Counted from the first letter of the stretch, positions 3,170 through 45,457 are shown. The stretch: DNA of 45,457 nt from Myxococcota bacterium (GCA_017994695.1 JAGOKF010000023.1:1-45457); one strand, 5' to 3'. Program-made: numbers and translations. The notes: generated from the sequence alone by a model not told the origin.

Positions 3170-4273
3170 TCAGGGTCCGGGAGACCGGATCCAGGTCACG
3201 ATCCGCTCGGCCAGCCGGCGCCCTCCCGTGTCCGTCAGGTGCACGCCGTCCTCGGTCCGGACCCGGACCATGTGCCCCCGGGCGTCGGGTAGGAAGGCCG
3301 CGAAGTTCCCGTCGGGACCGGCCACGAAGGGCGTGGACTCCAGGAAGGCGACCCTGGGAATCGTCGCCACCTCCTGCCGGACCAGGTCGTTCAGGTGCCG
3401 CATCCGGGCCGCGAAATCCGGCGAGCGCATCACCGGGAGCCCGACCCACAGGACCTGGGCGTCGTCGGACGCCAGCAGGGTGGCGAAGGCGCGGACGCGA
3501 CGGCGGTACAGGTCGTCCCACTCCCGGGTTCCGTAGGCGAGGACCTTGCCCTCGAAGCGGACGTTCTGGGCGTCGTTGCCCCCCATCGCGCAGACCACGA
3601 GGTCAGGCCGGCTCTGGGCGGCGACCTCTCGCCAGGTCGCGGTCCAGTCATAGACGTCGGGCCGGGAGAGGCCCGTCGCGGACTTGTGGGCCCGGAACAC
3701 CCGGAGGCCCGGGTCCTTCTCCAGCATCCGGACCAGGTTCGGGGCCAGTCCCACGGCCATCATCGAGTCCCCCACCAGGACGACGTTCCGAACGGCACCC
3801 CCAGGCTGCGGGGAGGACCCGTGCCGTGCCTCGTCCTCGGCTGGGGTTGCCTGAGTCACGAGGGCGCCTCCGGCCGGAGTCGCCTGCTCCGACCGGGACG
3901 GAAGCGGGGCATCGGGCCGATCCTCCCTGGCCTCCCGGGCCAGTTCGTCCATGTCGAGGTCCGGGGTCCCGGCGGCCATCGCGTCCGCCGGCGACAGGCG
4001 GGTGGCCGCCTGGATCCTCTCGGAGGCCGCGATCAGCAGGCGCCGGGGTGCGGTCAGGCCCGCCCGGTCCAGGGCCGGCCGGATCGCGCCCAGTCTTTCG
4101 GTCCAGCGGTCCTGGGCCGTTCCCACGGGCATTCGGGAGGCCCATCCCAGCAGGCCGTCGATTTCCAGCAGCAGCGAGACCGCGACGAATACCAGCAGGA
4201 GGAAGGCCAGGTCCCGGACCCGGTACCGGCGGGGGTCGGGACATTTCGCAACGCGCGACCGGCGGATCGTCAT
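3170..4273 (-). CDS. SGNH/DUF459-type esterase, membrane-anchored, partner of MBOAT
   Basis: 367 aa. One N-terminal membrane helix (about 22-38), a Pro/Ala/Glu-rich linker (about 115-160), then an SGNH hydrolase fold: block I GDS with nucleophile Ser170, block III GGND (231-234), and DGVH with Asp342/His345 as catalytic pair. It resembles the DUF459 group, which is often encoded beside AlgI-like MBOAT proteins. In such pairs the membrane acyltransferase passes acyl groups across the membrane and the SGNH protein transfers them to, or removes them from, an exported polymer. The ATG is 14 nt after the MBOAT stop with a strong AGGAGG between them, so the two are one transcript. The acceptor polymer cannot be told from the sequence. 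Confidence 0.8.
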   Translation of the reverse strand: MTIRRSRVAKCPDPRRYRVRDLAFLLLVFVAVSLLLEIDGLLGWASRMPVGTAQDRWTERLGAIRPALDRAGLTAPRRLLIAASERIQAATRLSPADAMAAGTPDLDMDELAREAREDRPDAPLPSRSEQATPAGGALVTQATPAEDEARHGSSPQPGGAVRNVVLVGDSMMAVGLAPNLVRMLEKDPGLRVFRAHKSATGLSRPDVYDWTATWREVAAQSRPDLVVCAMGGNDAQNVRFEGKVLAYGTREWDDLYRRRVRAFATLLASDDAQVLWVGLPVMRSPDFAARMRHLNDLVRQEVATIPRVAFLESTPFVAGPDGNFAAFLPDARGHMVRVRTEDGVHLTDTGGRRLAERIVTWIRSPGP

Positions 4274-4287
4274 CAAAGCGCCTCCTG

Positions 4288-5712
4288 CTAGAACTGGAAG
4301 TAGATGAACGGCGCGATCCCCGAGGGTCCCAGGGCGTCGATGACCAGCACCGCGGCGGCGGCCAGGGCGCCCTGGAAGGCCAGCGGCATCCGGGAGATCC
4401 GGCAGCGGAGCCCGTCGCTCCACCCCGGCGGAAGGGCCTGGCCGAAGATGCCCAGGGCGAGGGCCGCCAGCAGCCCGAGGCTGAACCAGGGCCCGAGGGT
4501 CCACGGATTCGCCAGGGACCGGATCACCGAGGCGGCCATCCCGAAGGAGGGCGCCCGGAAGAAGACCCATCCTAGGCAGACGAAGTGGAACAGCAGCACC
4601 CGGGCGACCAGGGGCCAGGCCCGGCTGCCCCGGAGCCGGTCGGCCCAGGGGGGATGCCACCGGGACCAGAGGCGGTGCACCACCAGCCCGAGCCCGTGGA
4701 GGGCTCCCCAGGCCACGAAGGTCCATGCCGCCCCATGCCACAGACCCCCGAGCAGCATCGTCAGCACCAGGTTCCGGTAGGTGCGCCCCTCGCCTCCCCG
4801 GTTGCCTCCCAGGGGGACGTACAGGTAGTCCCGTAGCCAGGACGAGAGCGAGATGTGCCAGCGCCGCCAGAAGTCCTGGGGACTGGTCGCCACGTAGGGG
4901 GAATCGAAGTTCTGCATGAACCGGTAGCCCATCAGCAGGGCGCACCCGATGGCCATGTCCGTGTAGCCCGAGAAGTCGCAGTAGATCTGGGCCGCGTATC
5001 CGTAGACTCCCAGGAGGACCTCCAGGCCCGACCGGCCGGCCGGGGTCTCGAACACCCGGTCCACGATGCCGGTCCCCAGGGAGTTCGCGATCAGGACCTT
5101 CTTCCCCAGTCCCAGCAGGATCAGCCACAGGCCCCGGGACACGTCGATGTCGCCGGGATCCCTCGGCTCCTGCAACTGGGGCAGGAAATCCCGGGCCCGG
5201 AGGATCGGCCCCGCCACCAGTTGGGGGAAGAAGGCGATGAACAGCAGGGAATCCAGCAGGCCGGGAGCCCGGGCCGGGGTTCCCCGCCAGGTGTCCACCA
5301 TCAGGGAGATGCCCTGGAACACGAAGAAGGAGATGCCGACCGGCAGCGCGATTTCCGGCAACTGGGGCAGGAACCGGAACCCGAGGGCGTGGAAGACGTC
5401 CGCCAGCGTGCTGGCCAGGAAGCCGAGGTACTTGAAGAAGGCCAGCACGCCGAGGCAGAGGGACACGCCGATGCCCAGGCGCACGCGGCGGACGGCCAGG
5501 GGGACCTCGGGGTGCAGGCCCCGGGCCGTGACCCACGACACCAGGGACACCCCCGCCAGCAGGGGCATGAAGCGCCAGTCCCAGTAGCCATAGAAGAAGT
5601 AGCTGGCGACGAGCAGCAGGACCTTGTGGAGCCGCAGGTACCGGTGGGTCGTCCAGGCCAGGCCCAGGACCGCGAGGAAGAACACCGCGAAATCGACCGT
5701 CGGGAACAGCAT
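4288..5712 (-). CDS. AlgI-like MBOAT O-acyltransferase
   Basis: 474 aa polytopic membrane protein of the normal AlgI length. Diagnostic stretches include SYFFYGYWDW near residue 37, the FWRRWHISLS block with His286, and GGLWHGA with His326, the histidine expected to be catalytic in this family. Members move an acetyl or other acyl group from a cytoplasmic donor across the inner membrane for modification of exocellular polysaccharide or peptidoglycan. The immediate downstream SGNH gene completes the usual two-component arrangement. No alginate or cellulose synthesis genes are in the window, so calling it alginate-specific would be unfounded. Confidence 0.88.
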   Translation of the reverse strand: MLFPTVDFAVFFLAVLGLAWTTHRYLRLHKVLLLVASYFFYGYWDWRFMPLLAGVSLVSWVTARGLHPEVPLAVRRVRLGIGVSLCLGVLAFFKYLGFLASTLADVFHALGFRFLPQLPEIALPVGISFFVFQGISLMVDTWRGTPARAPGLLDSLLFIAFFPQLVAGPILRARDFLPQLQEPRDPGDIDVSRGLWLILLGLGKKVLIANSLGTGIVDRVFETPAGRSGLEVLLGVYGYAAQIYCDFSGYTDMAIGCALLMGYRFMQNFDSPYVATSPQDFWRRWHISLSSWLRDYLYVPLGGNRGGEGRTYRNLVLTMLLGGLWHGAAWTFVAWGALHGLGLVVHRLWSRWHPPWADRLRGSRAWPLVARVLLFHFVCLGWVFFRAPSFGMAASVIRSLANPWTLGPWFSLGLLAALALGIFGQALPPGWSDGLRCRISRMPLAFQGALAAAAVLVIDALGPSGIAPFIYFQF

Positions 5713-7074: not shown

Positions 7075-7728
7075 CTACTCCGCCGCGAGAGAGGCCAGGG
7101 CATCGCGGTCCCGGAGGGTAATCCGCCCCCTTCCCAGCGCGACCCAGCCCTGGCACTCCCACTGGCGGGTGATCCGGATCGCGGTCTCGACGGTGGTTCC
7201 GACCAAATCCGCCAGTTCCCTTCGGGTCAGCCGGATCTCCGGGCCCCGGACGGCCAGTTCCAGCAGTCTCGCAGCGATGCGGTTCGGGACGGGGGCCATC
7301 GTGTTGTCGTGACCCACCGCGATGAGGTGGCGGATGCGGCCCCCGAAGGTCCGGAGGGCCTCCAGGGCAAGGTTTGGGTCTTTCCGGAGGGCCTCCAGGA
7401 ATCTCCCGGCACACACCCGGCTAAAGCGGCCGCCGCTCAGCGCTTCGACCGACGCCGGATAGGGGGCCCGATCCAGGGCCGGGATGACCCCGAAGGCCTC
7501 TCCGGGCAGGGCGAGGTGCAGCGTCAGGTCCCGCCCGTCCGCTCCCAGGCGGGCGATCCGGACCTGTCCTTCCAGGACCACGCCCAGGAAGTCCGGGGGG
7601 GAACCCTCCTCCACGAGCCTCTCGCCCCGGTGAAAGGGCCGTTCCTCGCCCAGGTCCAGCATCAGTCGTTGCAGGGCGGGACTGGTCAGATGGCCGCAGG
7701 GGAGACAGGAACGGGAAGGGGCTGCCAT
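7075..7728 (-). CDS. Crp/Fnr-family transcriptional regulator
   Basis: 217 aa. An N-terminal cyclic-nucleotide-type beta-roll sensor domain (about 15-120) is followed by a dimer helix and a winged helix-turn-helix with LTRRELADLVGTTVETAIR (about 160-180). The N-terminus carries CLPC (Cys8, Cys11), but I do not see the full four-cysteine set of a classical oxygen-sensing Fnr, so the signal could be haem, NO, a nucleotide or a different iron-sulfur arrangement. ATG 7728 is preferred over the upstream GTG at 7734 because GGAGGT lies 7 nt before the ATG and too close to the GTG. It follows the octaheme cytochrome gene by 68 bp on the same strand and is a plausible regulator of it. Confidence 0.85.
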   Translation of the reverse strand: MAAPSRSCLPCGHLTSPALQRLMLDLGEERPFHRGERLVEEGSPPDFLGVVLEGQVRIARLGADGRDLTLHLALPGEAFGVIPALDRAPYPASVEALSGGRFSRVCAGRFLEALRKDPNLALEALRTFGGRIRHLIAVGHDNTMAPVPNRIAARLLELAVRGPEIRLTRRELADLVGTTVETAIRITRQWECQGWVALGRGRITLRDRDALASLAAE

Positions 7729-7796: not shown

Positions 7797-9056
7797 CTAT
7801 TTCCTGACACCTCGGGCGGCGCCCTGCCGGTGCTCGGCCCGGAGTCTTGCGGCCTCGGCCTCGATCCGGGCGGCGGTCTCCACCAGCGGCGCCCAGCCGT
7901 ACCAGTGGCTGTAGTCGGGGTTGTTGTGGAAGGCCCCCTGGAAGGCCCGCATGCGGTATTCCATCAGCATCTTGTACAGGTCCTGCTCCACAGGGGTCTT
8001 CGCGTCGTAGAACTGCAGCAGGTCCGGAGCCACGGTCCATCCCTCGGGGGTCTTCAGGATGCCGTCCGCGTAGAGGGCCCTGACGGTCCGGATCGCCTTC
8101 GCGAAGACCCGATCGGCCTCCCGGATCATCTGGTCCCCGGCGGCCAGCTGGTCCCGGACATAGGAGGCGGAGTGGCACTGGGCGCACGTCTGCTGCATCC
8201 TCTGCCGCTGGGCGTCGAATTCCTCCCGGGACAGGCGGGCCACCTTCCCGGCCTTCACGACCTCGAGGCGCCCCGTGGGGTTGCCCGCCGCGTCCAGCAC
8301 TCCGAGGGCCTTCAGGATTTCCACGCGGTCCCCCAGCCACTCGGGGTCCTCTTCGGGGAGCCGGAGGGCCAGGAATCCCCAGGCGGTCATCACGCCGTGG
8401 TCCCCCTGCTGCATGTGGCAGGTGGTGCAGGTGGGAGCCCGGCCGCTGTCCCCCTCGATCTGCCAGATCACCCCGTGCTTCGACGTGCTGTACATCTCCC
8501 AGTGAGGGTGATCGAATCCCATGTGGCAGGTGGCGCAGGCCCGGGGGTCCTTGGCCTCCTTCTTGCTAAAGACGTGTCGAGTGTGGCACGAATCGCAGGC
8601 GCCCGTTCCGTAGTGCAGGCCGGCCTTGGTGCCGTCCTTGTCCCCGACCTTGTGGCAGCCGCTGCACCCCTTCATGCCGGCCCCCTTCATCGGGGTCGGC
8701 TGGTGCTGCAGGCCGGGCATCGCCTCCATGGCCACCCAGGCCAGGGAGTGCTTGCCGTTCTGGTACTGGGTCACCTGTTCCTGGTGGCACCGGGCGCAGG
8801 TGGCCGGGGTGGGGATCCGGGCCTTTCGGGCATCCTCCATGGCCTGATGATCGGCGCCGTGGCAGTCGGCGCAGTCGGCCTCGCCCGTCTGGTAATGGCG
8901 GCTGGCCTTGTGCTGCTGCACGATCCCCGGCGTCACCTGCTGGTGGCACTGGACGCAGGGCGAATCCTTCGATGCGGCGGGGGCCTTCGGGCCGGCGGCG
9001 GCGAAGGGGGAGACCCCGATCAGGAGCAGGAAGCACCACCCATGGGGACGAATCAT
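7797..9056 (-). CDS. Octaheme c-type cytochrome, hydroxylamine oxidoreductase family
   Basis: 419 aa with an N-terminal signal peptide (to about residue 21) and eight CxxCH haem sites at Cys34, 62, 87, 131, 154, 174, 210 and 291. The segments CHMGFDHPHWEMY (177-189), TSKHG, CTTCHMQQGDH (210-220) and NPDYSHWYG near 379-387 are typical of the HAO family. Family members act in the periplasm on hydroxylamine or nitrite; enzymes of anaerobes mostly run reductively and release ammonium, whereas nitrifier HAO is oxidative and longer. A Crp/Fnr gene follows and glutamine synthetase precedes, which fits reductive ammonium formation, but direction is inferred. No separate NrfH/CycB-type quinol partner is adjacent. 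GGAGGTG sits just upstream of this ATG, supporting it over a start 33 codons earlier. Confidence 0.85.
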   Translation of the reverse strand: MIRPHGWCFLLLIGVSPFAAAGPKAPAASKDSPCVQCHQQVTPGIVQQHKASRHYQTGEADCADCHGADHQAMEDARKARIPTPATCARCHQEQVTQYQNGKHSLAWVAMEAMPGLQHQPTPMKGAGMKGCSGCHKVGDKDGTKAGLHYGTGACDSCHTRHVFSKKEAKDPRACATCHMGFDHPHWEMYSTSKHGVIWQIEGDSGRAPTCTTCHMQQGDHGVMTAWGFLALRLPEEDPEWLGDRVEILKALGVLDAAGNPTGRLEVVKAGKVARLSREEFDAQRQRMQQTCAQCHSASYVRDQLAAGDQMIREADRVFAKAIRTVRALYADGILKTPEGWTVAPDLLQFYDAKTPVEQDLYKMLMEYRMRAFQGAFHNNPDYSHWYGWAPLVETAARIEAEAARLRAEHRQGAARGVRK

Positions 9057-10792: not shown

Positions 10793-11839
10793 TCAGGATC
10801 CGAACTTCTCGTCGAACCACTTCCGGACGGCCGGGGACCGGCGATAGACGTCCAGCGTGAACTCCGCGTGGCGGGGGGCGTAGCCGTTGCCGATGATCAT
10901 CTCGACGTCCATGCCGACGCCCTCGGCGCCCAGGGCCGCTTTCTGGAAGTTGGTGGCCATGTTGAAGAAGTAGACCTTGCCGCCCTGCTTGCAGGCCAGC
11001 ACGGACGCCAGTTCGGTCCCTTCCACGTTGGCGGTGTTGATCACCAGGTCGGCCATCGATCCCCCGGTGACCCGGGCGACCTGGTCCATCGTCTCGCCGG
11101 GGTTCAGTGCGTTCGCGGTGAAGAGGTCGTCCGCCAGCCCCAGTTCCCGGAAGGCGTCGATGCTGGACTGGCGGGTCGCCGACACCAGGATCCGGCAGTC
11201 CTGGCCGAGTTTCTGCCGGATCGCGGCGGCGCAGAGGATGCCCGACTTGCCGGCGCCGATGATGTAGATCGTCTGGCCCTTCTGGGCCAGCCGGTGGGCC
11301 TGGGGCGGCGCGCCGGCGACGTCCAGCAGGGCCAGGCAGGTCTTCACTTCCATGTCGTCGGGGATCTTCGCCAGCACGCCCGAATCGAAGAGCACCGCCT
11401 TGCCCTCGATGTCGATCTGCTCCGAGTCGTGGACCTCCCGGATCCGGTGGATGACCAGGGGGGTCAGGGTCAGGGAGACCAGCGTGCAGACCCGGTCGCC
11501 GATCTTCACCCCGGCGGGGTTGGAGTAGCGGGGGCCGAGGTCCTCGACCGTGCCCAGCAGCATGCCTCCGGACCCGGTGACGGGGTTCTGCTGCTTGCCC
11601 ATCGTGGCGACGTTTTTCAGGACCTGGGCCGCGATGCCCTGGGGGTCGCCCCCGGCGGCGGTGCGCATCTGCCGGAACGACGCCGAGTCGATGTTCAGGG
11701 TCTGGACGTCGATCAGGATCTCGTTGTCCCAGATGGGCAGGGAGTTGTCCAGGCGCGTGGCGGCCTGGGGCAGCGCCCCCTCGGGGGCCAGCACGCGGTG
11801 GCGCCCGAACCGGTCGCCGCCGTTCCTGTGTTGCGACAT
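10793..11839 (-). CDS. kdd: L-erythro-3,5-diaminohexanoate dehydrogenase
   Basis: 348 aa. The protein has a medium-chain dehydrogenase architecture with a Rossmann motif GAGKSGILCAAA (about 195-206) and the family-typical C-terminal NGYAPRHAEFTLDVYRR. Kdd deaminates L-erythro-3,5-diaminohexanoate with NAD+ to 5-amino-3-oxohexanoate and ammonia in lysine fermentation. The other pathway genes (kamA, kamDE, kce, kal) are not in this window, so either they lie elsewhere or the enzyme serves another route. A strong AAGGAGG precedes the ATG and a TTGACA promoter lies upstream. It is the first gene of the minus-strand run kdd, glnA, octaheme cytochrome, regulator. Confidence 0.85.
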   Translation of the reverse strand: MSQHRNGGDRFGRHRVLAPEGALPQAATRLDNSLPIWDNEILIDVQTLNIDSASFRQMRTAAGGDPQGIAAQVLKNVATMGKQQNPVTGSGGMLLGTVEDLGPRYSNPAGVKIGDRVCTLVSLTLTPLVIHRIREVHDSEQIDIEGKAVLFDSGVLAKIPDDMEVKTCLALLDVAGAPPQAHRLAQKGQTIYIIGAGKSGILCAAAIRQKLGQDCRILVSATRQSSIDAFRELGLADDLFTANALNPGETMDQVARVTGGSMADLVINTANVEGTELASVLACKQGGKVYFFNMATNFQKAALGAEGVGMDVEMIIGNGYAPRHAEFTLDVYRRSPAVRKWFDEKFGS

Positions 11840-17705: not shown

Positions 17706-19292
17706 TCAGCGGTCCCGGACGCAGACCGGGTAGGCCAGGTCGGCGTCGTGGTACTTGACCTCGACGGCGCCGTTGCGGAAGTCGATGCGGCAGACCTGGG
17801 CCTCCGGCCGGTCGGTGTAGTACTGGCAGCGGGATCCGGACCACAGGTACATGCTCCAGGACATGTAGGCGAACTCGAACTGGAACTCCGGGCGGATGTA
17901 GGCCCCCTTCTTCGGGTCGGACACCAGGAGGGTGGGGCCCTTCCACTGGTCGCAGCCCCAGCAGTCGCCTTCCCAGCAGTCCTCCCGGCAGGCGTCGGTG
18001 TAGGCGCAACTGCCGCCGGTCATCGTGCCGGGGCAGCCCCGGACCAGCGTGCGCAGTTCGGAGATCGTCGGCAGGCGCCAGTCGTCCCGCGGGGGATCCC
18101 CCCAGACCAGGCCGTCGCAGTAGGCCTTGGCGTCCAGCCAGTTCGCGAAGTGCTCCTCGTGGTCCGGGAAGACCGGTCGCTGCCACTCGATGCCCGTGTC
18201 CGGGTCCACCCAGGTGAGCCCCCCGTCGTGGAGGCACCGGCCCGTGAACTCGGCCCGTTGCGTTTCGCAGTGCATGTCCTGGTACCTGGCGCAGTCGTCC
18301 TGCAACTGCCAGTCGATGCCGCCGGTGACGCACTTCAGGGCCCGGGACCTCCAGCAGCGGCGTTCGCCGACCTGTTCGGCCGTGCAGTCGGGGTACTCGA
18401 CGCACCCCGGCTGGCCGTAGGAGGTGGTCCCGCAGGTGTGCCAGAACTCCCAGCAGTCCTCCTCGAGTTCCCAGTCCTGGTTCGTTCCGCACCGGTAGAG
18501 CCGGTCGTCCTCGCACTTCTTCTGGTCTTCCGAACAGGGACCGGAGGGGATCGTGTCCACGGTCGCCAGGTCCGATCCGCCGGGGTCCGAGGACCCGGGA
18601 TCCGAGGTGACGAAGTCCACCGGGACAGGGTCCGGCGAACCCGGGTCCACCGGGACCAGATCGGGAGGGACCCCGTTGTCCGGGGCGTCCTCCTCCTCGG
18701 CATCCGGCAGGTCCTCGATCGCGTCGGGCAGGTCCTCCTCGACGGGCATCGGGCGCACGCACCGCACGGGCATCGTCGCGCCGGTCGGGGAGTGGGTCAC
18801 CTGGGCCGTGACGAACGAGACGATCCACGCGGCATCCGGGAGATCCGGGGGGCGCGTCGAGGACCAATGACCGGTGCAGGGGCCGTTCAGGGCCTGGGGC
18901 CAGTAGCAGCCGCCGCTGCCCTGGTCGGGACCTTCCCCGGCGGGACAGCCGGCGCAGGACTCCGAGGCGCAACGCCCGTCCAGGCAGTCGCCGCCCGGCC
19001 TGCCGGGTTCGCAGGAACCCCCCGTGCCCGTCGCGGGGCATCGTTCGACCAGCGTGCGCAGTTCCAGCAGGGTCGGCAGGCGCCAGTTGGTGTGCCCGTT
19101 CCAGATCAGGTCCTCGCAGTAGCGGACCGCCTGCTGCCATTCGGCTGGGGTTCCCGAGTGGGGATCCTGCCAGCACAGCAGCGTGGCGGAATCGCACCAC
19201 TCGGCCTCCTCCGGGGCACCGGGGTCCTTTTCGCAGGAAACGGTCGCCATCAGGATGGCCCACGCCACCGGGAGAAACCGCTCTGTCCTCAT
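17706..19292 (-). CDS. Lipoprotein with two DUF1566 domains and an acidic linker
   Basis: 528 aa. Signal peptide with Cys20 as probable lipidation site. Two copies of a DUF1566 (Lcl C-terminal) module flank the middle: the first has NWRLPTLLELRTLVERCP and a TGGSC block, the second has DWRLPTISELRTLVRGCP and again TGGSC, so they arose by internal duplication. Between them lies a linker rich in Asp, Pro, Gly, Val and Ser (about 185-250) and a Cys-rich segment with paired-cysteine repeats (about 255-370). The modules are common in surface or secreted proteins of deltaproteobacterial lineages; function is unknown. GGAGG precedes the ATG. Confidence 0.8.
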   Translation of the reverse strand: MRTERFLPVAWAILMATVSCEKDPGAPEEAEWCDSATLLCWQDPHSGTPAEWQQAVRYCEDLIWNGHTNWRLPTLLELRTLVERCPATGTGGSCEPGRPGGDCLDGRCASESCAGCPAGEGPDQGSGGCYWPQALNGPCTGHWSSTRPPDLPDAAWIVSFVTAQVTHSPTGATMPVRCVRPMPVEEDLPDAIEDLPDAEEEDAPDNGVPPDLVPVDPGSPDPVPVDFVTSDPGSSDPGGSDLATVDTIPSGPCSEDQKKCEDDRLYRCGTNQDWELEEDCWEFWHTCGTTSYGQPGCVEYPDCTAEQVGERRCWRSRALKCVTGGIDWQLQDDCARYQDMHCETQRAEFTGRCLHDGGLTWVDPDTGIEWQRPVFPDHEEHFANWLDAKAYCDGLVWGDPPRDDWRLPTISELRTLVRGCPGTMTGGSCAYTDACREDCWEGDCWGCDQWKGPTLLVSDPKKGAYIRPEFQFEFAYMSWSMYLWSGSRCQYYTDRPEAQVCRIDFRNGAVEVKYHDADLAYPVCVRDR

Positions 19293-40870: not shown

Positions 40871-42703
40871 TCAGGGGGAATTCCGGAGCCGCTGGTCCGG
40901 GCGGAGGGGGTCGAAGGGCTGGACCACGCCCGAGTGGCAGGTGTTGCAGCGGGACAGCACGGGGGCGTCGCCGGCGTGGCCGCCGTCCTGTTCCTGGTGG
41001 CACTTTAGGCAGAGGCCGTGCATCGCGTCCATGTACCCCACCGCCAGCCCGATGTTGGGTGCCCCGGCGGGCTGGAACGCCGCCCCCTCGGGGATCATCG
41101 TCCGGTGGCAGTCCAGGCAGGGCCGGGAGTGTTCCAGGTCCTTGGGCCGGGAGGTGTCCTCGTGGCAGGTCAGGCAGCCCGGTCCCTTGGCCAGGGCATC
41201 CTGGTGCAGGCGGTGGTTGAAGATGCTGACGGGCAGGTGCTCGTCCGAGTGGCACTGGCTGCAGCCGGTGGCGTGGGCCCCGGGCTTCACCATGTGGTGG
41301 CAGTAGGCGCACTTGTCCTTCGTGTCCACGACGTCCAGGTGCATCTTGTGGTCGAACCGAACGCCCTTGTCGTTCCGGTTGCCGTCGATGATCATCACGT
41401 CGTTGTAGCCGGGCCCGTGGACCGCCTGGGCGACCACGGGCCACCCGTTCAGCGCCGACGACGGCAGCATCATCACCGCCAGGGCCGCCCCGGCCACGAA
41501 CATCATCGCGCCCCGGTTCAGCACGGGACGGAACTCCCCGACGCTCGGCAGGCGCTCCCGGGCGTGGCTCATCGGTCCCGCGGGCAGCAGGTGGAACCGC
41601 TCGGCGATGAAGAAGAAGACCAGCGCGGCGCCGGCCACGATGCCCAGGGAGGCGATGAACTCGGTCCACGCCGGGATGTACCGGGTGCCGGTCGTCTCGA
41701 TCATCGCGAGTCCCCCGGCATTGATCCGGTTGAAGACGAACCCGACCACCGTCATGCCCGCGGCGACGGCCAGCCCCTTCATCGATCGACGGCAGGCCGG
41801 GATCGACAGCAGCACCGCGGGGATGATCACGGCGATCAGCATCTCGGCGATGAACAGTTTCGGCCCCAGGCCCGGGTCCAGCACATGGCCCAGGGACCCC
41901 CGCCACGCCAGGTCGCCGATCCGCACCGCGCCGTAGAGCCACAGCACCGGGGCGGCGACCTTCGCCAGGCCCTGCAGCAGGTCCAGTTCGTAGTGCTGCT
42001 CGTAGACCCAGGCCGAGAAGAGGGACTCGGTGGTCACCATCATCAGCCCGAGCCCGACGGCGGACAGGAAGAAGAGGATCGGCAGGATCGGCGAGTACCA
42101 GAGGGGGTCGATCCGGTGGGGCATGATCAGCAGCAGGGATCCCAGGGAGGACTGGTGCAGCGTCGAGAGCATGATCCCGAGGATCACCAGGGGGACCGTC
42201 GCCTTCTTCAGCACGTGGTAGATCCGGGACAGCACCGGGTGCTTCGCCAGTTCCAGCACCACCGGCAGGAACTCCAGCAGCAGCACCGTCAGGTAGAGCA
42301 TCACGCACCAGCCCACCTCGAACAGCGGGGACCTGGGGTTCCAGAAGATGATCAGGTGCCAGATGTGCCAGGGGAGGCCCAGGTCGAAGAGCAGGCCGAC
42401 CACCACCGCCAGGTAGCCCAGGAAGGCCGTCAGCACCGCGGGACGGAGGATGGGACGGTACTGCTCCAGGTGGAAGACGTAGACCGTGGCCGCGATCACG
42501 AAGCCGCCGGCGGCCAGGGCGACCCCGCCCATCACGTCGAAGCCGATCCAGAAGCCCCAGGGCGTCAGGTCCGTCAGGTTCGTGGTGGCGCCCATGCCCC
42601 GCCAGAACCGGAACAGGGCGAAGGAGGCCGCCATTCCGACCAGGAACCACAGCAGCGCCTTCACGTTCTTCAGGCGCCGGGTCTGCAGGGGAGTGTTCGT
42701 CAT
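40871..42703 (-). CDS. NrfD-like quinone subunit fused to a hexaheme cytochrome c
   Basis: 610 aa. Residues about 15-370 form an NrfD/HybB/HmcC-type membrane domain with about ten helices (PWGFWIGFDVMGG near 48, LLEFLPVVLELAK near 142). A further helix (about 398-416) leads to a C-terminal domain with six CxxCH sites at Cys465, 481, 510, 529, 565 and 586 plus spare His for bis-His ligation. Haem attachment needs the periplasm, so the C-terminus is outside. NrfD proteins bind menaquinone and normally hand electrons to a separate cytochrome; here both are one chain. The start is 4 nt after the stop of the ferredoxin gene. No frameshift or stop marks the junction, so it is a true fusion. Confidence 0.9.
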   Translation of the reverse strand: MTNTPLQTRRLKNVKALLWFLVGMAASFALFRFWRGMGATTNLTDLTPWGFWIGFDVMGGVALAAGGFVIAATVYVFHLEQYRPILRPAVLTAFLGYLAVVVGLLFDLGLPWHIWHLIIFWNPRSPLFEVGWCVMLYLTVLLLEFLPVVLELAKHPVLSRIYHVLKKATVPLVILGIMLSTLHQSSLGSLLLIMPHRIDPLWYSPILPILFFLSAVGLGLMMVTTESLFSAWVYEQHYELDLLQGLAKVAAPVLWLYGAVRIGDLAWRGSLGHVLDPGLGPKLFIAEMLIAVIIPAVLLSIPACRRSMKGLAVAAGMTVVGFVFNRINAGGLAMIETTGTRYIPAWTEFIASLGIVAGAALVFFFIAERFHLLPAGPMSHARERLPSVGEFRPVLNRGAMMFVAGAALAVMMLPSSALNGWPVVAQAVHGPGYNDVMIIDGNRNDKGVRFDHKMHLDVVDTKDKCAYCHHMVKPGAHATGCSQCHSDEHLPVSIFNHRLHQDALAKGPGCLTCHEDTSRPKDLEHSRPCLDCHRTMIPEGAAFQPAGAPNIGLAVGYMDAMHGLCLKCHQEQDGGHAGDAPVLSRCNTCHSGVVQPFDPLRPDQRLRNSP

Positions 42704-42706
42704 CGC

Positions 42707-43513
42707 TCAGTCCTCCCGTCCGTCGTGGGGGGATTCCGATCCCGGTCGCCCGGCCTCGGGTTTCCTGGCGGCTTCCTCTTCCTTCTGGCGCTGCATCCGC
42801 CGGTCGATCACCCACCAGATGCCGGTCATCACCGCACCCATCGTCAGGAACACCGGCGGCACCGCGGTCATCGCGTAGAGCGTCCTCTGCGGCATCGGGC
42901 GGTCGTCAAGCCGGTTGCCGAGGGTCAGCATCTCCAGTTCGAAGGGCGCCAGGTAGAGCACGCAGGTTCCCCCGACCTCGGTCTCCCCGAAGACCTTGCC
43001 CTGGTAGCGATCCGGGTTCTCCCGGATGCGGCGATGGGCCTCGGCCAGGAGTTCGTCCCGTTCGCCGAAGATGGTGGCCTGGACCGGACAGGCGGCGGTG
43101 CAGCCCGGCTGCTGGCCCTGGGAGACCCGCTTCTGGAAGCACATCTGGCACTTGCGGACCAGGGGCACCGGCGACTCCCAGGAGTAGCGCGGGATGCCGA
43201 AGGGGCAGGCCATCATGCAGTACCGGCAGCCGAGGCACTTCCTGTCGTCGTAGATGACCGGCCCTTCGGAGGTCTTCTGGAGGGCGCCGACCGGGCAGGC
43301 GGAGGCGCAGGCGGGCTGGATGCAGTGCATGCACTGCCGCCGCACGAAGTGGTCCTCCTTCCGGACCACGCTGCACCAGCGTTCCGACGAGAGCCCGTCG
43401 TTCAGCAGCCACCGGAAGGGCAGTTGGGGCCCCAGGTCGTTGGCCATGCGGCAGGCGTCCACGCAGCGTTCACACCCGATGCACAGCGTCACGTCGGTCA
43501 GGATCGCCTTCAT
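42707..43513 (-). CDS. Ferredoxin-type [4Fe-4S] subunit with C-terminal membrane helix
   Basis: 268 aa. Sixteen cysteines in four cluster sets: 11/14/17/21, 61/64/69/73, 93/96/99/103 and 122/125/138/142, as in HmcB, HybA and DmsB. A membrane helix spans about 213-236, then an Arg/Lys-rich tail (RRMQRQK) that by the positive-inside rule should stay in the cytoplasm, which would put the clusters outside. Yet the chain starts directly with MKAILTDVTLCIGCERC and has no Tat or Sec signal. The role is electron transfer between the membrane subunits. The ATG overlaps the stop of the preceding gene as ATGA. Confidence 0.9.
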   Translation of the reverse strand: MKAILTDVTLCIGCERCVDACRMANDLGPQLPFRWLLNDGLSSERWCSVVRKEDHFVRRQCMHCIQPACASACPVGALQKTSEGPVIYDDRKCLGCRYCMMACPFGIPRYSWESPVPLVRKCQMCFQKRVSQGQQPGCTAACPVQATIFGERDELLAEAHRRIRENPDRYQGKVFGETEVGGTCVLYLAPFELEMLTLGNRLDDRPMPQRTLYAMTAVPPVFLTMGAVMTGIWWVIDRRMQRQKEEEAARKPEAGRPGSESPHDGRED

Positions 43514-44151
43514 CGCGTCACCTCCTGGGTCCGGGGGGCCGTCCCGGGGCAGGGCGGAGGCATCAGCACGCACCGGGACACCCGGGTGAAGGGAAGCAGC
43601 ACCAGCAGCAGGTCGGCCGAGAGGAAGTGCAGCAGGGCCGTCGTGTCCGGGGCCAGGGGGCTGCGGCCCGGGTGGGCGACCAGGTAGCCCGTGACGAAGG
43701 CCGTCCAGGCCAGCACGAGAGGCGCCCAGTCCACCAGGGACCAGGACCGGCGCACGGACCGGTCCAGCAGGCGCGCGACCAGCAGGGCACCCAGCGTCAC
43801 CATCGTGATCCGGGTCAGCAGGTCGGTCCACGCCGCCGGGACCGAGGGCCACAGCAGTCCGAGCGACCGGCCCCAGAGGCGGGCATGTCCCAGGTAGAAG
43901 AGGGGTACCACGACGACACCGGCCAGGGACGCCCAGACCAGCACCTCGACCCACCAGGGATTGCGCCCCGCACGCGTGACGGGGTCCAGCCAGCGCCGCA
44001 GGCCCTGGCCCAGGGCCCGGAAGGGCTTTCTCGGGTCCGCGGCGACGAGGATCATGGCGTTCTGCAGGAACTGGGAGAGGACGCCCAGGATCGCCACCGC
44101 CAGGCAGAACCGGAACACCGGTCCCGACAGGAAGGAGAGGAATCCGTCCAT
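43510..44151 (-). CDS. NarI/HmcE-like membrane cytochrome b subunit
   Basis: 213 aa with about five helices. The layout and the segments LFYLGHARLWG (His89) and LLHFLSADLLLVLLPFTR (His175) resemble the NarI-like subunits of Hmc, Tmc and DsrM, which carry haem b and oxidise quinol. The last segment reads PFTRVSR where I would expect a further His after PF, so the haem b set may be incomplete. GGAGG lies 7 nt before the ATG. First gene of the redox operon and coupled by ATGA to the ferredoxin gene. Confidence 0.72.
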   Translation of the reverse strand: MDGFLSFLSGPVFRFCLAVAILGVLSQFLQNAMILVAADPRKPFRALGQGLRRWLDPVTRAGRNPWWVEVLVWASLAGVVVVPLFYLGHARLWGRSLGLLWPSVPAAWTDLLTRITMVTLGALLVARLLDRSVRRSWSLVDWAPLVLAWTAFVTGYLVAHPGRSPLAPDTTALLHFLSADLLLVLLPFTRVSRCVLMPPPCPGTAPRTQEVTR

Positions 44152-44212
44152 CCGCACGCCTCCGCGCAAGTGGGGATCCGCCCGGCGGGACCGGCCGGAC
44201 CCGACGGACGGC

Positions 44213-44241
44213 AACGTAAACAAGACAACTCCGGCCGTCAA
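44213..44241 (-). promoter_or_regulatory. Promoter of the redox operon
   Basis: In an AT-rich island (about 44211-44280), minus-strand TTGACG (44241-44236) and TACGTT (44218-44213) are 17 nt apart, giving a leader of about 55 nt. No Fnr-type box was recognised. Confidence 0.45.
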
Positions 44242-44323
44242 TAGAAAAGTAATGATTCCAACAGGATGAAAATGGTCCGAGAAATTCCGGCAGCGCGGTG
44301 CCTGGCGTGGTTCCGAAGGGCCG

Positions 44324-45427
44324 TCAGTTGACGATGGATTCCATCAGGGCGGTGCCCTCCGTCAGGGGGACCTCGGTGCCGTCCTCCAGGACCAGCACCA
44401 GGTCGGGCGTGCCTTCCTGGCGGTAGATGACGGGATTCCCGGCCACGGCCTGGGCGATGGTGCGCTGGGCCCAGGGCAGGCGCTCCAGCACCGCGTCCCG
44501 CTCGTGGACCCTCCGGCCGGTGAAGGTCCCCTGGATGGTTCCCCTGGGGAATTTCGCCTCGATGCGGTAGCGCGTGGCGTAGGAGTGCCCCTTCTTCGAG
44601 GGGTCCCGGGCCTCCTGGTCCGTCTCCAGCGTGAACCGGTCCGTCAGGGCCAGGACCCGGTTCCTGTCGGTGACCAGCAGCCTCAGGATGGGGGCGGACC
44701 CGTAGTCCTTCCGCGGGCGGAAGGCCAGCAGGGCGACGGTGTGGTCCTTGTGAAAATAGCGCACGGTCCACCAGTGGGAGGACCACTTGCTGCTCATCTC
44801 GGTGTTCACCATGTGGTCCAGGTAGCCGGCTCCCTTCAGGCGCACCCGCTGGCCCCCGACCGACAGGTCCCCTTCGAAGTCCCCCCGAGGCACGTGGAAG
44901 AAGGACTGCACGAAGTCCTCGCAGCCGTCGTCCAGGCAGATCCGGCCGCCGTGGAACTTCACCCCGTCGGTCCATCCTCGGAGCCTGCCGTGGAGGCGGA
45001 GTTCCGACCCCTCGACCCGGAAGGTGGCGGTCCGGCCCTGGAGGGACAGGGAATGGGGCCCGATGGCCAGGGAGTTCCCGTCGAAATCCTCCCGGTAGTC
45101 CTTCTGGTCGTATTCCCATCCGTAGGGTTTTCCCTGGCCTCCGGGCATCGTCAGGTTCACGCTGACGGCGCTGCGGCCGGAGGTCACCCCGATGTTGCTG
45201 TACATGAAGTTGACGTAGAGGACGTGCCCCTCGTCGGACTGGAGGATCATGGTCCAGGACTCGGTGTAGTACTTGGAGTCGTGGGGATGGCGCAGGAAGT
45301 CGGTTCGCCCGGTGGGCTGGACCGCGGCCCCGGTCGCTTCGGTCTTCATCCGGGCCCAGCCCGGGGAGGAAAGGACGCAGAGGGCCAGCATGGCCGCGCC
45401 GGCGATTCTTGAAACGGGTCGGTTCAT
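44324..45427 (-). CDS. Secreted Svf1/AttH-like (CrtC-type lipocalin) protein
   Basis: 367 aa with a signal peptide (hydrophobic core about 9-22, cleavage near GWA). The N-terminal part YTESWTMILQSDEGHVLYVNFMYS and the later GYLDHMVNTEMSSKWSSHWWTVRYF follow the pattern of the Svf1/AttH/CrtC superfamily of paired lipocalin-like domains, some of which are hydratases of carotenoids or oxidative-stress proteins. Function here is unassigned. Two starts are possible; ATG 45427 has GGGAG at the right distance, ATG 45433 is too close to it. It precedes the redox operon on the same strand, but that operon has its own promoter. Confidence 0.7.
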   Translation of the reverse strand: MNRPVSRIAGAAMLALCVLSSPGWARMKTEATGAAVQPTGRTDFLRHPHDSKYYTESWTMILQSDEGHVLYVNFMYSNIGVTSGRSAVSVNLTMPGGQGKPYGWEYDQKDYREDFDGNSLAIGPHSLSLQGRTATFRVEGSELRLHGRLRGWTDGVKFHGGRICLDDGCEDFVQSFFHVPRGDFEGDLSVGGQRVRLKGAGYLDHMVNTEMSSKWSSHWWTVRYFHKDHTVALLAFRPRKDYGSAPILRLLVTDRNRVLALTDRFTLETDQEARDPSKKGHSYATRYRIEAKFPRGTIQGTFTGRRVHERDAVLERLPWAQRTIAQAVAGNPVIYRQEGTPDLVLVLEDGTEVPLTEGTALMESIVN

Positions 45428-45457
45428 CGTCATGCTCCCGAAACAAGGGGGGTCAGG

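Follow-up and report, generated by a model that had tools for sequence, protein, structure and literature searches.

Gene organisation of the locus

The DNA analysed here is a 45,457-nucleotide stretch of Myxococcota bacterium (GCA_017994695.1 JAGOKF010000023.1), called the window at its full length and numbered from its first letter, and on its minus strand (44151-40871) lie three head-to-tail genes with no room between them. They encode a NarI-like subunit, a four-cluster ferredoxin and an NrfD domain fused to a hexahaem cytochrome (Table 1). The NarI-like stop codon and the ferredoxin ATG overlap in an ATGA, and the 610-residue frame of the fused protein begins three bases past the ferredoxin gene and contains zero internal stops. 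Gene calls and frames agree with the positions and description of the three genes in a first-pass annotation of this DNA, and the fusion of NrfD to six CxxCH sites proposed there is borne out by domain matches within the single frame: PF03916 (NrfD) covers residues 44-327 (66.9 bits, gathering score 25.8) and PF02085 (class III cytochrome c) residues 444-533 (41 bits). The sixteen cluster cysteines noted at the same time are conserved in relatives of the ferredoxin.

The fusion is confirmed as real. A frame-joining or sequencing error is rejected because the same frame recurs in independent genomes (at least 80 other loci), chance CxxCH motifs because the haem columns are conserved across aligned relatives, and a pseudogene because the ratio of nonsynonymous to synonymous substitution rates (Ka/Ks) is low. 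Against the same-genus copy, this ratio is 0.07 for NrfD, 0.21 for the junction and 0.04 for the cytochrome, and against other genera it is 0.25-0.30 for both domains. The NrfD and cytochrome halves are both under purifying selection, and the protein is maintained.

Table 1. Positions of the three-gene operon and its parts in the window
Feature	Position	Strand	Basis
NarI-like (HmcE/TmcC-like) membrane cytochrome b subunit, 213 aa (amino acids)	43510-44151	minus	ATG start; NCBIfam scores, histidine columns, alignment to E. coli NarI
HmcB/HybA-like four-cluster ferredoxin, 268 aa	42707-43513	minus	NCBIfam scores, 16 conserved Cys, signal and tail statistics
NrfD (HmcC/HybB/QrcD-type) fused to hexahaem class III cytochrome, 610 aa	40871-42703	minus	domain matches, conservation, AlphaFold2
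NrfD domain, residues 1-372, ten predicted transmembrane helices	41588-42703	minus	Pfam/NCBIfam, alignment, AlphaFold2
Eleventh helix, residues 388-412	41468-41542	minus	AlphaFold2 helix, junction alignment
Hexahaem domain, residues 450-595	40919-41356	minus	alignment; nearest solved relative HmcA
Upstream spacer, place of DsrK/HmcF-like gene in most relatives; none here	44152-44323	no strand	

Fold and conserved residues of the NrfD-hexahaem protein

Against the NCBIfam profiles, the NrfD part scores 288 bits with HmcC (cut-off 550), 269 with HybB and 115 with QrcD (cut-off 570), the ferredoxin scores 237 bits with HmcB (cut-off 420) and 205 with HybA, and the NarI-like subunit scores 79 bits with TmcC and 69 with HmcE (cut-off 275), both below cut-off. 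The Hmc-like character recognised in the first-pass annotation is retained, with HmcC and HmcB as best profiles and HmcE close behind TmcC. The placement of the NrfD part relative to HmcC and QrcD is one of profile scores, the tree described below having E. coli HybB among its references.

An AlphaFold2 model from 82 sequences (predicted local distance difference test, pLDDT, 80.9; predicted template modelling score, pTM, 0.76) contains eleven long helices, ten belonging to NrfD and one running into the cytochrome. By Foldseek on this model, the nearest solved folds are ActC (6btm_C, E 6.9e-10; also 6f0k_C) and PsrC (2vpw_C, E 2.9e-4), and the protein shares their fold of two four-helix bundles. 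The nearest solved cytochrome to the hexahaem domain is the 16-haem HmcA (1z1n, E 1.1e-21). Because c-type haems are attached in the periplasm, the eleven helices would have the chain start in the cytoplasm, return there after helix 10 and cross once more through the eleventh helix, which brings the cytochrome to the periplasmic side; the quinone pocket would lie on that side too.

The CxxCH motifs lie at positions 465, 481, 510, 529, 565 and 586, and each haem column is kept in 81 or 82 of the 82 aligned sequences. Six further histidines outside these motifs (452, 455, 470, 497, 500 and 562) are kept in 77-82 of the 82. Their number matches what six bis-histidine haems would need, a pattern suggestive of an electron wire with no open catalytic site. 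In the NrfD part, the quinone residues D120 and E142 of QrcD correspond to D107 and E129, and its proton-path residues D70, Y110, Y150, E157, E164 and H199 to D56, Y97, Y137, E144, E151 and H183, all kept in 80-82 of the 82 sequences; this correspondence was drawn from PMC6303296 by constant position offset and motif, the alignment holding no QrcD sequence. S125, the equivalent of the conserved serine of NrfD proteins (PMC8076601), is invariant or nearly so.

Distribution and ancestry of the fusion

Relatives were taken from a scan of one genome per species, and the best 80 loci were analysed; many more relatives exist. In all 80, the NrfD and cytochrome parts form one uninterrupted full-length frame, with 555-607 of the 610 residues matched at 42-75% identity and with six CxxCH motifs in 78 loci and five in two. 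The fusion is a widespread family rather than a local oddity, found in at least 15 phyla: Acidobacteriota (17 loci), Zixibacteria (12), Bacteroidota (10), Ignavibacteriota (6), Myxococcota (5), Planctomycetota (3), Calditrichota (3), Chloroflexota (2), Gemmatimonadota (2), and single loci in Bdellovibrionota, Pseudomonadota, Electryoneota, LCP-89, Armatimonadota, Fibrobacterota and Kryptoniota. Thirteen of the 80 carry no phylum name, and most loci are metagenome bins, such that the single-locus phyla call for caution. The window genome itself groups with Myxococcota, and a near copy of its locus (L049) is labelled Myxococcales. The NrfD-hexahaem family is old.

In a tree of the NrfD domain only, the 44 sampled rows of the main fused set group together as a single clade (Shimodaira-Hasegawa-like approximate likelihood ratio test, SH-aLRT, 99), to which neither E. 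coli HybB nor the unfused NrfD proteins of the same phylum belong. Among the references used, the fusion forms its own clade in this tree with no characterised member, and the protein does not nest within an already characterised fused family, which leaves the first-pass annotation standing on this point. A second Myxococcota fusion group (L038, L176-L179), with 3 or 6 haems and different spacing, falls outside the main clade, and the tree would be compatible with either one or two origins of the fusion. At locus L183, both parts are separate genes, the cytochrome having a signal-like N-terminus. Three unfused relatives from the same class (L039, L042, L048) combine an 11-16-haem cytochrome, probably a lipoprotein, with a signal-less ferredoxin and NrfD, and at L180 a five-haem NrfD fusion follows shortly after genes for a 16-haem cytochrome and a ferredoxin.

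The parent operon and the loss of its cytoplasmic subunit

Most relatives have, immediately before the NarI-like gene, a gene for an iron-sulphur protein with a CCG domain, whose best profile is DsrK (276-287 bits, cut-off 400), followed by HmcF (199-207 bits against an equivalog cut-off of 750) and TmcB. The usual operon order is thus DsrK/HmcF-like, NarI-like, signal-less ferredoxin and NrfD-hexahaem fusion, flanked downstream by a PAS histidine kinase and response regulators and often upstream by a sigma-54 activator. The presence of the DsrK-like gene in most relatives indicates that the usual complex is Hmc/Dsr-like and has a cytoplasmic end. No DsrK/HmcF-like gene is present at the window locus, and the window genome lacks the cognate protein, with only weak partial matches to it, the best at 28% identity. 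Two more genera of the window's taxonomic family resemble the window genome, and the member G012 has a DsrK-like protein at 74% identity. The absence of an HmcF-like gene reported in the first-pass annotation consequently holds for the window locus and its related genomes but not for most relatives, and in the window lineage it is, judging from the relatives' operons, a derived loss. The next gene upstream, at the place of the relatives' DsrK-like gene, encodes an Svf1-like lipocalin (44324-45433, minus), and a gene of similar size takes that place in the same-genus and g2 genomes. A still smaller version of the operon is found at L066, where the fused protein and the ferredoxin stand with neither a NarI-like nor an adjacent DsrK-like gene.

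In NarI, H56 and H205 hold the haem on the cytoplasmic side, and H66 and H187 the haem on the periplasmic side. An alignment of four sequences of the NarI-like subunit gave no solved relative, but a larger one did match NarI, and its conserved histidines at window positions 76, 89, 175 and 193 correspond to H56, H66, H187 and H205, the match to H66 being made by neighbourhood across an alignment gap. The window protein has kept H89 and H175, the periplasm-side pair, but has L76 and R193 at the cytoplasm-side pair and has lost its C-terminal tail; it thus retains only two of the four haem-ligating histidines of the dihaem NarI, all four of which are present in relatives with a DsrK-like subunit. 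Wherever a locus has the cognate DsrK-like gene, H76 and H193 are both present (73 of 73 loci), whereas the window and five related genomes without this gene have Leu, Val or Ile at 76 and Arg at 193, with 89 and 175 kept. Two further loci that lack it, both from Bryobacteraceae (L064, L083), have kept H76 and have Asp or Arg at 193; their genomes contain only DsrK-like paralogues of 33-36% identity, and the genomes of L111 and L053 hold the cognate protein. In the tree, L064 is separated from the window lineage and has acidobacterial and other sequences as its neighbours, indicating at least two separate losses. The joint loss of the DsrK-like subunit and of the haem b ligands is a strong lead in these comparisons and no proof of causation, as there were only two events, one of which was found while looking at the pattern.

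Proposed function of the complex

We consider the complex to be an Hmc-type oxidoreductase between quinone and periplasmic cytochromes, in which an HmcC-like subunit and an HmcA-like six-haem cytochrome have become one polypeptide and of which the window-lineage form would work on the periplasmic side only; we put the probability of this at about 0.72. In the mechanism envisaged, menaquinone would bind the NrfD domain near the periplasmic face, as the conserved QrcD residues suggest, and quinol electrons would pass through the four ferredoxin clusters and the six bis-histidine haems to soluble or outer-membrane acceptors, the same path run backwards giving quinone reduction. Known NrfD subunits hold no redox cofactor (PMC8076601), and it is presumably still the separate ferredoxin that connects quinone to haems, which argues against the idea, put forward in the first-pass annotation, that electron entry and exit are built into one protein. 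Since the N-side proton-path residues of QrcD are conserved, turnover is probably electrogenic. In the ancestral complex, a cytoplasmic DsrK/HmcF-like iron-sulphur subunit would have been in electron-transfer contact with both b haems of the NarI-like protein, and after the losses the window lineage would exchange electrons between quinone and periplasm only. Electron exchange between menaquinone and periplasmic cytochromes appears the most likely job, in keeping with the quinone:cytochrome oxidoreductase first proposed.

Several points weigh against this reading. The family is known from sequences and models, and the window proteins miss the equivalog cut-offs of HmcC, HmcB and HmcE. Menaquinone as the quinone species is an assumption, and the direction of electron flow is not readable from the sequence. 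A twin-arginine translocation (Tat) signal is absent from the window ferredoxin and from 73 of 75 ferredoxins, the other two giving weak matches, neither convincing, and no Tat-signal partner was recognised in the relatives' operons; the periplasmic placement of the ferredoxin thus rests on the charge of its C-terminal tail and on homology.

As to direction, a complex working as a quinone reductase fed by periplasmic cytochromes, as in Qrc, is a serious contender, if somewhat the less probable one. Quinone reduction would fit the kinship to QrcD, which is named as the closest characterised relative and reduces menaquinone electrogenically (PMC6303296); the NrfD part groups with HmcC, HybB and QrcD, and the proton-path residues are kept. 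The same residues would, however, serve the reverse reaction, and no periplasmic dehydrogenase or hydrogenase is found in the operon, which would fit quinol oxidation toward external or periplasmic acceptors. The label of menaquinol oxidase in the first-pass annotation accordingly claims a direction that the sequence does not fix.

The lack of Tat signals and of recognised partners also speaks for a cytoplasmic ferredoxin that feeds electrons through the NarI-like haem to the hexahaem domain, NrfD being an anchor or a separate quinone valve. In the ferredoxins, a median of 11 residues precedes the first CxxC. The cytoplasmic arrangement is unlikely on several grounds. After the C-terminal anchor, 66 of 71 ferredoxins have more Lys and Arg than before it, as would be expected with the cluster domain outside, and in the window ferredoxin, too, positive residues follow the C-terminal membrane anchor. 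Furthermore, in the topology fixed by the haems the quinone pocket of NrfD faces the periplasm, the proposed route would need an N-side haem b that the window lineage lacks, and the homologous HybA and HmcB are anchored by their tails in the periplasm (PMC10924467). In that survey of Tat-dependent tail-anchored proteins, HmcB-type ferredoxins are paired with HybB-like quinol oxidases, and one signal-less ferredoxin type probably travels with a Tat-exported FeFe hydrogenase (PMC10924467). TatC is present in the window genome, and the ferredoxin is either carried by an unlinked partner or located other than homology suggests.

Slightly less probable still is a polyprotein, translated as one chain and cut by signal peptidase after helix 11 to free the hexahaem cytochrome. 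Such a case is fbcH of Bradyrhizobium, which encodes a cytochrome b/c1 precursor that is cut after translation. Helix 11 does resemble a signal peptide, with a conserved Arg, an uncharged run of median 18 residues and AxA-like small residues in 65 of 82 sequences, and the separate cytochrome gene at L183 starts with its own signal-like N-terminus. AxA-like matches are nevertheless common by chance, the site shifts between alignment columns, AlphaFold2 models an ordinary 25-residue helix, and in the window pairs the junction shows only a moderate relaxation of constraint. That the window-lineage complex is a decaying relic, its DsrK-like subunit, haem ligands and NarI-like tail having been lost, is very improbable given that it is intact in six genomes of three genera, at Ka/Ks of 0.07 and 0.04.

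Beyond the quinone:cytochrome oxidoreductase itself, a broader proposal, on which we would give even odds, is that the DsrK-like, NarI-like, signal-less tail-anchored ferredoxin and NrfD-hexahaem proteins make up a pan-bacterial, undescribed class of transmembrane redox complex, cut down at least twice to a quinone-periplasm module when the cytoplasmic subunit was lost together with ligands of the cytoplasm-side haem b, and that the ferredoxin arrives at the periplasmic face along a pathway new for proteins of its kind.

Significance and other genes of the window

A role in energy conservation is attributed to NrfD subunits in many respirations, but how they are oriented and by which routes their electrons move has mostly been inferred. 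Covalent c-type haems mark the side of the membrane within the NrfD chain itself, making the side of the quinone site testable in one protein, and the fusion imposes a 1:1 ratio of NrfD to cytochrome. Through the paired losses, nature has already supplied both versions of the complex, one possessing the cytoplasmic subunit and its haem and one lacking them. Many uncultured anaerobes carry this family, among them Acidobacteriota, Zixibacteria, Ignavibacteria and Myxococcota, and in them it may be a main link connecting the quinone pool with acceptors in the periplasm or outside the cell.

A possible redox partner on the same contig is an octahaem cytochrome (7797-9056, minus; 419 residues, 8 CxxCH) of the multihaem/hydroxylamine oxidoreductase-hydrazine dehydrogenase kind, whose gene is adjoined by that of a Crp/Fnr-type regulator (7075-7662). 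The window further encodes an L-erythro-3,5-diaminohexanoate dehydrogenase of lysine fermentation (10793-11839, minus; above the NCBIfam cut-off), a DUF459/SGNH and MBOAT gene pair likely involved in polysaccharide O-acylation (3170-5712, minus), and a 520-residue protein with 35 cysteines and two Lcl_C domains (17706-19268, minus).

Comparison with known systems

No NrfD-multihaem fusion was described in the full-text literature searched, a scope that leaves most subscription papers outside. For Mros1571/1572 of Melioribacter roseus, the published description is of an NrfD-like protein that feeds multihaem cytochromes and is separate from them. The first-pass annotation was right that NrfD and the cytochrome are separate chains in characterised complexes, as is the case for the NrfD complexes in the literature (PMC8076601, PMC6303296, PMC9386147, PMC3534657, PMC10924467, PMC13047784).

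The Hmc complex of Desulfovibrio (HmcA-F) is matched in the joint presence of HmcB-, HmcC- and HmcE-like genes, in a cytochrome part nearest HmcA and, in relatives of the window locus, in an HmcF/DsrK-like gene. It differs in that HmcC and the 16-haem HmcA are separate, whereas here an HmcC-like protein and six haems share one chain, the ferredoxin has no signal peptide, the window lineage has no HmcF-like gene and the profile scores stay below the equivalog level. There is no room between the three genes for the small hydrophobic HmcD, and the rest of the genome was not searched for so short a gene. Qrc (QrcABCD) has NrfD quinone and proton-path residues at matching positions and a hexahaem cytochrome partner, but QrcA is a separate chain, the QrcD score here is far under its cut-off, and no QrcB-like molybdoenzyme-type subunit adjoins the window operon. 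Hydrogenase-2 likewise joins a tail-anchored ferredoxin (HybA) to a ten-helix quinone subunit (HybB); HybA, however, has a Tat signal, HybB has no haem, and no hydrogenase is found here. The parent operon recalls DsrMKJOP in its combination of a DsrK-like protein, a DsrM/NarI-type subunit, a ferredoxin, NrfD and a multihaem c, but the trihaem DsrJ is separate from DsrP, and the ferredoxin and NrfD score far nearer Hmc. In alternative complex III, the cytochromes are separate subunits, its ActB and ActF are missing here and identity is 16-17%, although its ActC provides the best solved fold for the NrfD part.

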